Assembly: GCA_018267285.1 (NCBI GenBank)
Contig: JAFDYU010000010.1
Coordinates: forward strand, 1 to 64,000
Source of the DNA: Bacteroidota bacterium
Lineage (GTDB): Bacteria; Bacteroidota; Bacteroidia; Cytophagales; Cyclobacteriaceae
Direction: 5' to 3'
DNA: 64,000 nt
Made by a program: the position numbers and the translations under genes. Of the stretch, positions 32,520-38,779 are shown in pieces. Positions within the stretch are counted from its first letter, which is position 1; each line of letters begins with the position of its first letter. Below the pieces are notes generated by a model that worked only from the letters and a program-made list of their open reading frames with translations, did no database searches and had not been told where the DNA came from.

Positions 32520-33317
32520 TCATGAAAGCGCTTCGAGCAGGTCCACGGGAGCCCTGTAGTCGAGGGCTTCGTGAGGTCGGTGGTGATTGTAGTCCAGCAT
32601 CCACTCCTCGATTTTTTCACGCACTTCTTTGAGTGAGTAAAATACGTTGGCGTTCAGCAACTCCTTGCGGATGCTCCCGTTGCACCGCTCCACATATCCG
32701 TTTTGCATGGGCTTGCCCGGTTGGATATACGTTAAGCTTATCTTATGCTGCCGGCACCATTCATCCAACGTGTGCGAGATGAACTCCGGGCCGTTATCAA
32801 CCCGGATCATTTTGGGTAGCCCCCTGAACTCTTTCAAGTATTCCAACACACGAACCACGCGCAACGCGGGCAAAGAGAGGTCTGCCTCCATGGCAAGGAC
32901 CTGCCGGTTGTAATCATCTACTATATTCAGCAAGCGGAATTTACGGCCATCCCACAAACTATCGCTCATAAAATCAACGGACCAGACTTCATTGATTGCC
33001 TGGGGCTGAAATAAGGCCTGCTTCACGCGCGCGGGCAGCCGTTTTTTAAAACGCCTGCGGATGTTGAGCTGCAAGCCCGTGTACACACGGTAGACCCGCT
33101 TGTGGTTCCAGGCCAAGCCCTTCCGCCTTATCCGGAAGAACGATTGCCAGAACCCAATGGCCGGATGGCGGGCCACCAGTGCCTGCAATTCATTGATGAC
33201 AGGGGCATCATTCTTCGATTTAGGGGTATACTGGTGAGTACCCCGCGACACGCTCAGTGTTTTGCACGCCTGACGTTGGCTCACTCCATGGGTTTCAATC
33301 ATGAACTGAACCAGCAT
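32520..33317 (-). CDS. IS3 transposase OrfB (DDE integrase domain)
   Basis: Catalytic subunit with an rve-type DDE core: Asp in EVWSVDFMSDSL, Asp in IRVDNGPEFIS, and Glu in MQNGYVERCNGSIRKELLN. The N-terminal HTH_21-like part includes HPAIGFWQSFFRIRRKGLAWNHKRVYR. The first Met of the frame is at 33317 (MLVQFMIETHGVS), but translation normally comes from -1 frameshifting at the orfA end (33341-33347); the frame is open upstream to 33482. The reading frame itself is intact to LLEALS at 32520. Confidence 0.88.
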   Translation of the reverse strand: MLVQFMIETHGVSQRQACKTLSVSRGTHQYTPKSKNDAPVINELQALVARHPAIGFWQSFFRIRRKGLAWNHKRVYRVYTGLQLNIRRRFKKRLPARVKQALFQPQAINEVWSVDFMSDSLWDGRKFRLLNIVDDYNRQVLAMEADLSLPALRVVRVLEYLKEFRGLPKMIRVDNGPEFISHTLDEWCRQHKISLTYIQPGKPMQNGYVERCNGSIRKELLNANVFYSLKEVREKIEEWMLDYNHHRPHEALDYRAPVDLLEALS

Positions 33318-33334
33318 GCCCTTCTGGTCAGGCG

Positions 33335-33601
33335 CTAAAGCTTTTTTGCAACGGCATCTTTCAATGCTTCGTGCACAAGGCTCAGGTTGGCGTACATCCG
33401 CTTGAGCCGCGAGTTCTCTTCCTCCTACTCTTTCATCCTTTTGACATCGCTGACCTGCATGCCCCCGTAGCGCTGCCGCCACTTATAGAAGGAGGCTGTG
33501 GTGACGCCCAACTCCCGGCAGATTTCTTCTGCCTTGCGACCTGCCTCATGGTCTTGGATCGCTTTTACAATCTGTGTTTCTGTGAATCTTGACTTTTTCA
33601 T
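33335..33601 (-). pseudogene. IS3 transposase OrfA with in-frame amber stop
   Basis: Helix-turn-helix subunit of an IS3 transposase, IS407/IS51-like in appearance: MKKSRFTETQIVKAIQDHEAG, then EEICRELGVTTASFYKWRQRYGGM. At codon 59 (33425-33427) a TAG replaces what is normally a Leu codon in KELEEEN; reading continues in frame as EEENSRLKRMYANLSL...VAKKL to the true stop at 33335-33337. One substitution (TTG to TAG) would explain it. The intact protein would be 88 aa. With the stop, neither full OrfA nor the OrfAB fusion can be made without readthrough. Confidence 0.85.
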
Positions 33602-35577: not shown

Positions 35578-35862
35578 CTAAATTAATTTGGAATAGATAC
35601 TGAATGCAGCAATCCCCATCCCTAAGGTCAATACAAATAAAATTTTAATCCATTGTGTAGAAAGGGTCACTTCCAAATCAATAAGGCCTGCTTTTTGCAA
35701 AACCAATTGCAACACAAGGTAAGCATAAATCAATACTACAATGGAAATTACAATGACCACCGATGCAAACGAAAGCACCGTACTCATTTGAAAAGTGCTG
35801 CCTGCACTTTGAAGCAGAATACTTTTTAAACTGATAAATAAAAACTGGCTTAACGTATTCAT
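35578..35862 (-). CDS. Small membrane protein of the oxidase/NOR-like operon
   Basis: 94 aa with two hydrophobic helices, about residues 28-55 (STVLSFASVVIVISIVVLIYAYLVL) and 70-90 (ILFVLTLGMGIAAFSIYS). Its start overlaps the stop of the SCO gene by four bases (ATGA type), so translational coupling is likely. I do not recognise a family. By position it could be an accessory or small structural subunit of the heme-copper enzyme encoded upstream. Confidence 0.65.
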   Translation of the reverse strand: MNTLSQFLFISLKSILLQSAGSTFQMSTVLSFASVVIVISIVVLIYAYLVLQLVLQKAGLIDLEVTLSTQWIKILFVLTLGMGIAAFSIYSKLI

Positions 35863-36617
35863 TGTTGGTTTTGGGTTAAGGTTGAATAACTATGCTTCTT
35901 TCTGGCTTTGCCTGAAATGATCTGCAATAACAAAAGTAAACTTACCGTAAAGATTGCCGGAGCAACGATTAACAAAAGCCCCCAGTTCATCCGCCAGTTA
36001 CCGCTGGCCGGATCGAAGCGGAAGCAACTCATCCATACGTTGCTGCCCAACGTGGAGTAAACCGGAACAAAATCATGGGTCAATTCTTTGAAGAGACGAT
36101 TCCATTGATCGTTGGTGGGTAGGCCTTCAATCCATTGCAGTATTTTGCCGTTGGTGTCGATCAAAGCGAGGATGGTATTGTGTTCGTATAAATTATCTAC
36201 TACTTGAAGCTCAAGCCCGAGTGAAGTCAGTAGTCGGTCGCTGCTCTCTTGCTCAAGCACCCCAAACGTCCAATTGGCAGGAGGGGGGCTGGCTTCGGTA
36301 AAGCCGGCTAACTTAGACAAACGTTTGGAGTCATCGTTCGGGTCGAAACTCAATACCATCATCTGAAAATTACTTTCATTGGTACCTTGCAGCAAAACAC
36401 GATCACGAATTTGTAGCAGATAGGGGTTGCACACACCGGGGCAACGGCTATACGCAAAGGTTATCAGTACAGGTTTTTGAGAATACCAACGTGAAATAGG
36501 CCGTGCAGAGGAGTCAGCGGTTAGAATTCTCACATCCGGAATTTCCCTTAGCAGAAATTCCATCTCACCCGTTTTTTGTAAGGGAAGAAAATTCAGGAGA
36601 ATAATTGCCCAACACAT
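35859..36617 (-). CDS. SCO1/SenC-family copper chaperone-like protein
   Basis: 252 aa thioredoxin-fold protein, used in relatives to metallate or reduce the CuA centre of cytochrome oxidase. The metal/thiol motif is Cys59-x3-Cys63 in AYSRCPGVCNPY, and the conserved His occurs in NLYEHNTILALID. A C-terminal membrane helix (about 218-240, GLLLIVAPAIFTVSLLLLLQI) and a short hydrophobic N-terminus place the domain outside the membrane. Unlike typical SCO proteins it carries the C-terminal anchor and a stretch (TLGSNVWMSCFRFDPASGNW) between domain and anchor. Its start overlaps the catalytic subunit gene by 25 bases. Confidence 0.85.
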   Translation of the reverse strand: MCWAIILLNFLPLQKTGEMEFLLREIPDVRILTADSSARPISRWYSQKPVLITFAYSRCPGVCNPYLLQIRDRVLLQGTNESNFQMMVLSFDPNDDSKRLSKLAGFTEASPPPANWTFGVLEQESSDRLLTSLGLELQVVDNLYEHNTILALIDTNGKILQWIEGLPTNDQWNRLFKELTHDFVPVYSTLGSNVWMSCFRFDPASGNWRMNWGLLLIVAPAIFTVSLLLLLQIISGKARKKHSYSTLTQNQQ

Positions 36618-38026
36618 CGTTTAATAAAATCGAAGGTGTAAATGATCATACCCAGAAAATAGAGCGAAGCAAAAGCCACCGCCATCTGCGCCAGCGAAAT
36701 ACCTTTGCTCACCACTTCGTTGTACATATTTACTTTTCGGGGAACGGAAAGAGCCCCGCCTAAATAAAAGGCCAACAAAAAGCCGACACCGCCAATCACC
36801 AGCAAACTGAAAATTATTTTCACCGTGCCCGGTTTTATTTTTTCGGGCGCAATTTCATCGGCAAACCAACTGGCGAAAGCCAAACTGAAAAATACATTGC
36901 CGAGTAAATTATAGGTATGAAAGTGAGCAGGCACCCATTGGGTATTGTGCAGCACAAAGTTGTTGGCGATCACCGCATCCAGAAGCGCACCCATGCCCCC
37001 AATCACCCAAAACATCACACCAAAAAAATACAATAACGAAGCCAAGCTCCATTTCATTTTTGAGCCGTATAGGGTAACAAGCACCGAAAAAATAGTTACG
37101 CATACCGAAGGCAGCGGAGCAAGCCAGGTAATAATTTGGCCTGCGTACTGAAGCGCAAGCGGCTGAGCAAAATCCATATACAAGTGGTGGAAGTAGGCAA
37201 ACAACACAATCAGCAGGGTAGCATTCCAGGCCAACACCACATACCAGGTTGACTTGTAGGCAGGCTTGCCAACCATGCCGGGAAACAACTCATAAAGCAC
37301 GGCCAAACCCATGTAGAGCATTTCGTTGGCGATGGTATGACCAAAAAAGAAGGTCAGGTTTTTCATGAGCAATGGATCGTTGGTGAAGGCGCCCTTGCTA
37401 AACATCTCGATGTAATACAACACCAACAACACCACAGCAGCGAGCAAACAACAAATTACCCCAATGATGGATACAAATGAGATGAGTATAAACGGTGAAA
37501 CAGCAGGCTCAGTCTTACCCGCGAGATGGTGCCAGCCAAGTGCCTGAACTATCGTATATTTTTTGAGGATGGTCGCAACCAAAACCACCGACCACACCAA
37601 CCAACCCACACCAAGAATAGTGAGAGCAATAAAAAATAGAAGTGGACCAATTTCCATACCGGTGGCAAGAAACGGTAACGGGTAAAGAAAATACCAACTG
37701 GCATGAAACTTGGCAAAGAATGTTGCCGTCAGCAGTACAACGATGCCAAGGATTGTACACACATAAGCAAAGACACTACTCCATCGGGGCACGGTGAGGT
37801 ACCGGCTCATTAAATACTGAATGCCCGCCATGCCCGCAACGTACCACACACCAATCATCAATAAGCCGTGCGAGGTCATCAGCACATAGAAATTTACGGG
37901 GTTTAAATTTACAAGCTCGGCTTGCCCCATGCGCATCGTCAAACCGAAAATAATAGCTACCAGAAACACCACCAGTACAGTGATGAGCCAGAGCAGGGTT
38001 GTTTTTTTGTTAGTAGTTATGTCCAT
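36593..38026 (-). CDS. Heme-copper oxidase superfamily catalytic subunit (possible NO reductase)
   Basis: 477 aa, about 12 membrane helices. Heme and CuB ligands are visible: His53 (TSHGLLM), His230 (FFGHTIAN), His280-His281 (YFHHLYMDF), His368 and His370 (WVPAHFHTYN). In oxygen-reducing A- and B-type enzymes His230 would start HPxxY with the cross-linked Tyr four residues later; here that position is Asn234, followed by Glu235. Loss of this Tyr is a known trait of NO-reducing members of the superfamily. So either an unusual oxygen reductase or an NO reductase of the CuA-containing kind. It follows the CuA subunit by 14 bases and overlaps the SCO gene. Automated annotation would probably say cytochrome c oxidase subunit I. 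Confidence 0.88.
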   Translation of the reverse strand: MDITTNKKTTLLWLITVLVVFLVAIIFGLTMRMGQAELVNLNPVNFYVLMTSHGLLMIGVWYVAGMAGIQYLMSRYLTVPRWSSVFAYVCTILGIVVLLTATFFAKFHASWYFLYPLPFLATGMEIGPLLFFIALTILGVGWLVWSVVLVATILKKYTIVQALGWHHLAGKTEPAVSPFILISFVSIIGVICCLLAAVVLLVLYYIEMFSKGAFTNDPLLMKNLTFFFGHTIANEMLYMGLAVLYELFPGMVGKPAYKSTWYVVLAWNATLLIVLFAYFHHLYMDFAQPLALQYAGQIITWLAPLPSVCVTIFSVLVTLYGSKMKWSLASLLYFFGVMFWVIGGMGALLDAVIANNFVLHNTQWVPAHFHTYNLLGNVFFSLAFASWFADEIAPEKIKPGTVKIIFSLLVIGGVGFLLAFYLGGALSVPRKVNMYNEVVSKGISLAQMAVAFASLYFLGMIIYTFDFIKRCVGQLFS

Positions 38027-38040
38027 GATTTTAGAAATGC

Positions 38041-38592
38041 TTATTCAACTTTTATCTTAGCCATCATGCCCGAATGTGCAACCCCGCAATATTCCAGGCA
38101 CAGTATATCGTAGGTGCCGCTTTCTTCGAATTTCCACCGCAGCCGGTTCATGTATCCGGGCATAACCTGAACCTGTGCCTGCAGCACACCTTCTTTATAT
38201 AAACTGAACCCATGATTTACATCCAGACTTGAAACACTAAACTCAATGATCTTATCAACCGGAACGGTTATCTCTACACCGGCCGACATATTAAAATCGT
38301 CTTCCGTTTTTATCGGGAATTTGGAAATCGCAAAGGCAAACTGTTTGGCCACCACAAATACTTTTTCTTCGGGCTCCGATTTGGCGTAAAGAAAATAAGG
38401 TGATTTGGGTAATGTAACCCCCATAATCAATATCACGGTTCCGAGCGAAATAAAAAAGAAAATCGCCCTCTTGCGATTGACATTTTCTACAGCCCCACTT
38501 TTATTGGCTGAAATAAAGACAAGAAAAAAAACGCAAATGATGATGAGCGACATCACCATAAAAACCAGAAATACTTCTTTTTGTGTAGTCAT
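38041..38592 (-). CDS. CuA-containing subunit II of heme-copper enzyme
   Basis: 183 aa, electron-entry subunit. Two N-terminal helices (about 7-28 and 43-62) then a periplasmic cupredoxin domain. All CuA ligands are present: His127 (DVNHGFSLY), Cys165, Glu167, Cys169, His173 and Met176 (CLEYCGVAHSGM). Electrons therefore probably come from a soluble cytochrome c or cupredoxin, not directly from quinol. First gene of a four-gene minus-strand operon with the catalytic subunit, SCO protein and a small membrane protein. The region upstream holds several ATGACTT-type half-sites. Confidence 0.9.
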   Translation of the reverse strand: MTTQKEVFLVFMVMSLIIICVFFLVFISANKSGAVENVNRKRAIFFFISLGTVILIMGVTLPKSPYFLYAKSEPEEKVFVVAKQFAFAISKFPIKTEDDFNMSAGVEITVPVDKIIEFSVSSLDVNHGFSLYKEGVLQAQVQVMPGYMNRLRWKFEESGTYDILCLEYCGVAHSGMMAKIKVE

Positions 38593-38655: not shown

Positions 38656-38779
38656 ATGACTTCAAGATAGTTTTTTTAGAAAATCAAAAAGTAATTTCCG
38701 TATGACTTTTTTTAACAAAAAAAGCAAAAATCATCTTTGAGTAGTCATACGAAATGATTAACATGACTTTGGTCATGTT
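38656..38779. promoter_or_regulatory. Operator-like cluster upstream of the CuA/HCO operon
   Basis: In the 379-bp divergent gap, a perfect dyad AACATGAC-TTTG-GTCATGTT occupies 38760-38779. It has the TGAC-N4-GTCA layout of Crp/Fnr-family sites. Further ATGACTT half-sites lie at 38656-38662 and 38702-38708, and AGTCATA at 38743-38749; CGTATGACT (38699-38707) and AGTCATACG (38743-38751) pair exactly. Which gene is controlled, and by what, is inference. Confidence 0.5.

Follow-up and report, generated by a model that had tools for sequence, protein, structure and literature searches.

In ammonia oxidisers, the sNOR-type enzyme, a little-studied, copper-containing and proposed nitric oxide (NO) reductase, is encoded by the operon norSY-senC-orf1, as in Nitrosomonas europaea (NE0683-86), with the genes in the order CuA subunit, catalytic subunit, SenC and small membrane protein (PMC4940428). 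sNOR has also been published for two Candidatus Methylomirabilis species (PMC6094997), and a table of signature residues gives N for sNOR and names Silicibacter among its carriers (PMC8756737 Table A4); Silicibacter pomeroyi is a synonym of Ruegeria pomeroyi (R. pomeroyi below). We analysed a 64,000-nt stretch of DNA from a Bacteroidota bacterium (Cyclobacteriaceae; assembly GCA_018267285.1, contig JAFDYU010000010.1, positions 1 to 64,000), hereafter the window, and found that a four-gene operon on its minus strand (35578-38592; positions as noted earlier, by open reading frame (ORF) check) has the gene order of the ammonia-oxidiser operon. The type II qCuANOR of Bacillus azotoformans (BAZO_04695-04710) is, by description, also like the window in having an Asn for the active-site Tyr, a short subunit I, a two-helix subunit II and the order CuA-COX1-SenC-membrane protein, and unlike it in having a third subunit with 4-5 helices (PMC3475470); from this anatomy we infer that type II qCuANOR is present-day sNOR. 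By sequence, tree and gene order, the enzyme of the window is a member of the known sNOR family, and the operon probably encodes an sNOR-type NO reductase. The first-pass annotation had raised a CuA-type NO reductase as a possibility and had held that the group could not be told. The possibility gains support from the loss of the Tyr at both the A/B-type and the cbb3 position and from a tree placement outside the oxygen reductases, with catalysis itself a prediction, and the group can be named as sNOR. What is new here is one more member of this family; the parts worth following are an NE (Asn-Glu) signature in its active site and a link to Rrf2 and RIC genes.

norY (477 aa; 36593..38026, minus strand) encodes the heme-copper catalytic subunit I (PF00115, COX1, E 3e-52, 178 bits; also by tree), and its frame is open, without stops. 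We aligned NorY with two sNORs and with A-type (2), B-type (1) and C-type (2) references; a second alignment added four B-type rows, two Gln-bearing rows and further sNORs. All six histidine ligands of the hemes and CuB are present (H53, H230, H280, H281, H368 and H370), in agreement with the first reading of the sequence. The stretch from the CuB ligand H230 to the cross-linked Tyr position and its neighbour lies at 37322..37339, the CuB ligands H280-H281 at 37184..37189 and the heme ligands H368 and H370 at 36917..36925 (all minus strand); we take H368 to be the high-spin heme ligand and H370 the low-spin heme ligand, from knowledge of the family. Ligand roles, the function of the Tyr in O2 splitting and the role of SCO are those generally known for heme-copper enzymes. 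Four residues after H230, where the A- and B-type references have Y and the two eNOR-like rows have Q, NorY has N234, followed by the clade-specific E235, so that the replacement of the cross-linked Tyr noticed earlier stands when NorY is aligned with A-, B- and C-type references. The C-type (cbb3) Tyr occupies another column (H280 minus 6), which is Y in both C-type references and V274 in NorY, and by this alignment a cbb3-like Tyr appears to be absent as well.

The relatives of norY were examined in a 73-row alignment, A4, made up of the window and 72 out of 80 relative loci; the other 8 loci were left out because their frames were partial or too long or because they were duplicates. Neither N234 nor any of the six histidines varies in the 73 rows, which rules out chance; since the relatives were retrieved by sequence patterns around HH and HNT, conservation of the histidine regions is partly by construction, whereas that of N234 is not. 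The V274 column holds V, I, L or F in all 73 rows. In a wider set of 99 rows, duplicates included, N is found in 97, the other two being A- and B-type references. We considered Y283, two residues after H281, as a Tyr supplied by another helix and rejected it on alignment; it is invariant in A4, and it is Leu in R. pomeroyi and in both AMO-bearing genomes introduced below. The ba3-type (B-family) oxygen reductases resemble the sNOR rows in the HNTLWVP-HFH signature, the CuA subunit and a Tyr at His+15; in contrast, their His+4 Tyr is lost in the sNOR rows, and the His+11 Tyr of Haloarcula is Leu, Val or Ile there.

In a tree of 46 rows (the window, 30 of the 72 A4 relatives and 15 references), in which R. 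pomeroyi and two AMO-bearing genomes represent the known sNORs and there are no cNOR, qNOR, bNOR or gNOR rows and no named Nitrosomonas NorY, the window falls within a 35-row sNOR clade (SH-aLRT 100) together with R. pomeroyi, Thermomicrobium and the NorY of the two AMO-bearing genomes. This clade is separate from the A-type (2), B-type (5), eNOR-like Q (2) and C-type (2) rows, and NorY thus falls apart from the A-, B- and C-type oxygen reductases; the trees are quick ones with SH-aLRT support and without bootstrap, and long-branch warnings make their deep forks unsure. The two AMO-bearing genomes, tied to ammonia oxidisers by their AMO gene, come from 12 AMO-positive genomes among 399 sampled from one order; the sNOR match was strong in 2 of the 12, weak in 1 (1.7e-16) and absent in 9. 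Both carry norS, norY, senC and a gene for a 189-202 aa membrane protein consecutively. Their NorY is like that of the window in the Asn at the Tyr position and in its clade, and their subunits (NorY 494-496 aa; NorS 174-181 aa, two helices) have sizes like those of the window and unlike those of the type I Bacillus enzyme. They differ in having NA where the window has NE, and in an orf1 product with 4-6 predicted helices, whereas the last gene of the window encodes 94 aa and two helices; the two genes occupy the same place after senC and have no detectable similarity. The sNOR of R. pomeroyi (WP_011241963.1) has 34% identity to the window NorY, and its locus consists of a divergent Rrf2-family gene, then CuA subunit, COX1, SCO, membrane protein and formate/nitrite transporter genes. 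It differs from the window in the NA at the site, in Leu for Tyr283 and in the transporter after the operon, and its Rrf2 gene is unmatched by the Rrf2 of the genome to which the window belongs (the host genome) at E 1e-10. A Methylomirabilis homologue from an enrichment bin (L043; 53% identity over the best segment) has the NE residues and falls in the clade of the window, and differs in that its nearest SCO match is 1.6 kb off.

The partner genes are consistent with this placement. norS (183 aa; 38041..38592, minus strand) encodes the CuA subunit II (PF00116, COX2 periplasmic domain, E 5e-8) with two N-terminal membrane helices predicted by simple hydropathy. Its motif C165-LEY-C169-GVA-H173-SG-M176 (CLEYCGVAHSGM, residues 165-176; 38065..38100, minus strand) and the further ligand His127 upstream of it make up the complete CuA site that had been claimed for this subunit. 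The senC/SCO gene (252 aa; 35859..36617, minus strand; PF02630, SCO1-SenC, E 5e-7) encodes a copper-delivery protein with a CPGVC motif, and the last gene (35578..35862, minus strand), in the position of the ammonia-oxidiser orf1, a 94-aa membrane protein with two helices by hydropathy; both are where the first-pass annotation had put them. The 94-aa protein has no Pfam match, and homologues of its gene are found in the closest relatives only. A gap of 14 bp separates norS and norY, followed by overlaps of 25 bp (norY/SCO) and 4 bp (SCO/94-aa gene). Among the 73 loci with room, 70 have norS directly upstream and SCO directly downstream of norY, the exceptions being L043, L049 (nearest SCO match 5.2 kb away, as compared to the 1.6 kb of L043) and L093, whose norY frame is broken up. 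The CuA motif is complete in 77/78 homologous subunits II and CxxxC in 79/79 SCO proteins. Every NCBIfam match to subunit I is far under cut-off, the best being CtaD_CoxA with 90.5 bits vs 670.75, and an automatic name would therefore be cytochrome c oxidase subunit or similar, as had been anticipated; the R. pomeroyi homologue does carry the annotation 'cbb3-type cytochrome c oxidase subunit I'. Since sNOR genes are so easily given such names, counts of NO reduction can come out too low.

E235 is present in 43 of the 73 A4 rows, and these form one clade (SH-aLRT 99), the NE clade, with 37 Bacteroidota, 2 Ignavibacteriota, 1 Acidobacteriota, 1 Methylomirabilis and 2 rows that carry no phylum label, the window being one of these. 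N355 is present in exactly these 43 rows and N373 in those 43 and one other row, and position 377 is N in 41 of them and Q in 2; the remaining 30 rows are hydrophobic at 235, 355 and 377. Seven columns (154, 235, 261, 355, 377, 387 and 456) split the NE rows from the rest without overlap.

Many NE loci also have a 20-base dyad (like TTAGGACAAAATTGTCCGAA) 81-121 bp ahead of norS. We found GACAANNTTGTC with at most one mismatch in 11/42 NE upstream regions (mean 0.28 and maximum 2 in 40 shuffles) vs 0/30 others, and with at most two mismatches in 15/42 (shuffled mean 3.8, maximum 10) vs 3/30 others (mean 2.1); the loci are not all independent because L022 and L024 are near-identical siblings. 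In 1.24 Mb of sequence, much of it around norS, there are nine exact matches, sibling duplicates included. Eight of these are upstream of norS, two of them (L014 and L015, NI type) at -167, and the ninth (L008) is the L023 site. Because norS sites served to train the weight matrix, their high rank is by construction; independent hits lie 31-43 bp ahead of the Rrf2 gene downstream of the operon (L023, L024 and L050), 20 bp before the Rrf2 gene of the host genome (L002) and before RIC (L022, L023, L024 and L126). Other strong hits are at L037:468, L035:4756 and L046:474; L035 belongs to Gelidibacter japonicus, an sNOR carrier available in culture.

In the four closest sibling genomes the order norS-norY-SCO-orf-rrf2-RIC comes with a common operator-like dyad: G022 has norS, norY, SCO, (orf), rrf2 and RIC, and rrf2 and RIC also follow in L022, L023 and L024. 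RIC homologues lie within about 6 kb in 9/80 loci (L022, L023, L024, L028, L031, L042, L050, L057 and L095, the first three close kin), as compared to 0.2-0.6 chance neighbours expected if there are one to three RIC genes per 3.3 Mb. Six of them were checked by NCBIfam, and five are over the cut-off (L042 barely) and L057 below it. RIC is reported to repair NO-caused Fe-S damage and usually to be unclustered with such defences (PMC9268430). A Pfam scan of 141/149 nearest-neighbour proteins of the NE clade (two genes each side where present) gave as the commonest families cytochrome c (6), short-chain dehydrogenase (5), CMD (5), DUF488 (4), SCO (4), Rrf2 (4), cbb3-type cytochrome c (4), KR (4), formate/nitrite transporter (3) and COX1 (3).

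We put forward with considerable reserve that the NE clade is a distinct sNOR catalytic variant, in which Glu235, fixed with Asn355, Asn373 and (in 41/43) Asn377, would form a new cluster, protonatable or hydrogen-bonded, close to the active site, in the role of the cNOR glutamates, and that the enzyme may be the NO remover of an Rrf2-RIC nitrosative-stress regulon and not a respiratory oxidase. The seven separating columns include non-polar ones; co-fixation thus extends beyond polar residues close to the active site, which counts against such a variant. We found no description of the NE signature or of the Rrf2-RIC link in those parts of the sNOR literature that were available, and the typing of sNOR across many genomes in PMC12569097 may include Bacteroidota cases.

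A COX1-family search of the host genome gave four places, namely an A-type oxidase, a divergent C-type protein, the window norY and a weak partial match, and no further NOR candidate within this family. The A-type and C-type proteins both keep their Tyr; the C-type protein (L002) was considered as a second Tyr-less enzyme and rejected, as it has a Tyr at the C-type position by alignment. This divergent C-type COX1 (L002:1000-2847) is 615 aa long with an N-terminal extension and scores 231 bits as ccoN vs a cut-off of 583, and its partner protein joins FixO-like and cytochrome c domains. The host also has a clade II NosZ (924 bits), with NosD and a Crp-type response regulator nearby. No NirK was over the cut-off (best 20.6 bits vs 296.3) and NirS was not found in the genome search, in which a loose first pass means that absence is not proof. 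Among 62 genomes of the same genus, 11 have sNOR (host included), and these 11 have NosZ in 10, NirK in 1 and NirS in 0. The host combines sNOR with clade II nosZ, and no nitrite reductase that forms NO was recognised in it; it is a candidate consumer of both NO and N2O.

We read the enzyme as one that presumably reduces NO when oxygen is low and NO is a stress. The CuA of NorS would receive electrons from cytochrome c or a different small donor; in NorY these would reach first the low-spin heme (H53, H370) and then the high-spin heme (H368) and CuB (H230, H280, H281), where two NO would be coupled to N2O and water. The cross-linked Tyr, in oxidases an extra electron and proton donor for O2 splitting, would be unneeded and is replaced by Asn234; SCO would load CuA; and the N2O could be reduced by the clade II NosZ of the host. 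With no nitrite reductase that forms NO recognised in the host, the NO removed by the enzyme at low oxygen most likely comes from neighbours or chemistry. The sequences directly show the anatomy, the family, the order of the genes, the genome context and, in siblings, an operator-like dyad in common with an NO-stress gene; the metal and heme content, the electron donor, NO as the substrate, the proton path and the condition of expression are what we infer from them. NO reduction is the best supported function because the Tyr is lost at both known positions, the family is sNOR, norY is the sole NOR candidate of the COX1 family beside NosZ, and the dyad of the siblings is common with an NO-repair gene.

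The main rival is that the enzyme is a high-affinity B-family oxygen reductase without the cross-linked Tyr, with NO reduction as a side reaction, which we regard as unlikely. For the Nitrosomonas sNOR such an oxidase has been put forward on the grounds that the enzyme is induced when O2 is limiting and does not have the glutamates of NorB (PMC6967387). The R. pomeroyi operon adjoins ccoNOQP, a micro-oxic setting, and the host Rrf2 gene with the dyad adjoins a C-type oxidase gene; both fit NO reduction as well. What argues against an oxidase is that none of the 73 rows has the Tyr at either known position, that the host already has A-type and C-type proteins with their Tyr, and that the operator-like dyad is common to the operon and RIC, an NO-repair gene, in the four closest siblings.

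Several points nevertheless weigh against NO reduction by an sNOR. The biochemically characterised NORs are cNOR, qNOR, bNOR and eNOR, sNOR being proposed (PMC11388526). In N. europaea sNOR transcripts go up when O2 is limiting, and a high-affinity oxidase is the reading that the authors prefer, although the same source points to indirect evidence that the sNOR of Nitrococcus mobilis reduces NO (PMC6967387). PMC3475470 gives the name sNOR to type I of the Bacillus enzymes and not to type II, the one with the anatomy of the window. nosZ is found in 10/11 genus genomes with sNOR vs 32/51 without, which is not significant (Fisher p 0.087), and nirK in 1/11. RIC is near the operon in just 9/80 loci, hemerythrin/RIC is outside the 25 commonest Pfam families of the NE nearest neighbours, RIC genes are reported to respond to oxidative stress too (PMC9268430), and an annotated ric lies about 1 kb from a lone A-type COX1 reference (L021:80-3418, Paracoccus ferrooxidans plasmid). 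The norS promoter of the window has no dyad (best 3 mismatches), and the host dyad at the Rrf2 gene beside the C-type oxidase would fit an oxygen-linked regulon too. Whether the substrate of sNOR is NO or O2 is contested in print, and the sibling operon with RIC and Rrf2 under one dyad makes the question directly testable.

It is very improbable that the enzyme belongs to another Tyr-less group, namely bNOR (Bacillus CuA NOR, type I), eNOR or gNOR. All three are CuA- or cupredoxin-linked kin of the B-type oxidases, the bNOR site is also Asn (PMC8756737), and PMC3475470 likens the type I enzyme to the Nitrosomonas eutropha sNOR and puts the two together. However, eNOR is marked by Q and gNOR by D, and cNOR/qNOR have Glu at the Tyr position (PMC8756737 Table A4). 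NorY has N234, both Q-bearing proteins are outside the clade, and the window is apart from the C-type rows, which does not agree with the C-family kinship of cNOR/qNOR. Type I subunit I genes are 1683-1707 bp and the type I subunit II has one helix fewer (PMC3475470), whereas the window has a 477-aa subunit I and a two-helix subunit II, and the NorSY of both AMO genomes resemble the window and not type I. A strict Bacillus CuA-type NOR (longer subunit I, one-helix subunit II), which the first-pass annotation had listed among the possible groups, is thus mismatched in anatomy, and later work distinguishes bNOR (formerly CuANOR) from sNOR (PMC11388526). Least credible of all is a decayed or repurposed enzyme, with another reaction (e.g. 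NO dismutation) or none, for although an enzyme that loses a catalytic residue may lose its function with it, this operon keeps every metal ligand and both the CuA and the SCO motif, all of them conserved across phyla, and the norY frame is open. Two genes annotated as b(o/a)3- or cbb3-type, L113:2336-4021 (Thermus thermophilus) and L115:2285-4015 (Defluviimonas plasmid), resemble eNOR in having Gln where the Tyr would be.

Upstream of the window norS (168-187 bp) lies a perfect inverted repeat with CRP/FNR-like spacing, AACATGAC-TTTG-GTCATGTT (38760..38779, no strand assigned). This is a lead only, because such a repeat arises in 18/1000 shuffles of the intergenic region. Its core, TGAC-N4-GTCA, also forms the core of the HcpR consensus TTGACnnnnGTCAA, which has been reported upstream of hcp and norB in two cyanobacteria, whereas the Bacteroides HcpR motif is reported as different, GTAACnnnnGTTAC (PMC1274295). 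As a common norS motif, TGAC-N4-GTCA was rejected since there is no enrichment (NE 23/40 vs a shuffled mean of 21.3; others, including two NE loci, 22/32 vs 18.5). In the host genome, the window site is the sole one with fewer than two mismatches and four other places have two; a backward-read control gave 3 vs 5 per strand.

The host dyads (L002:515-534 and 1025-1044; G000:C3) are on a contig other than the window, with the Rrf2 and divergent C-type oxidase genes. The host RIC is on a third contig, with a weaker dyad (L124:2016) before the gene preceding it. Near this RIC, and also adjoining a DUF2249/DUF1858 gene, there is a 430-aa COX1-like membrane protein of no named family (L124:4608-5900; G000:C17), with similar proteins in L028, L042 and L057. 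NnrS was considered as the identity of the COX1-like membrane protein beside RIC (L004, L124) and dropped, as Pfam and NCBIfam gave it no support. In the window, about 2 kb past the downstream end of the operon, an ORF (32520-33482) resembles, by eye, an integrase-type transposase.

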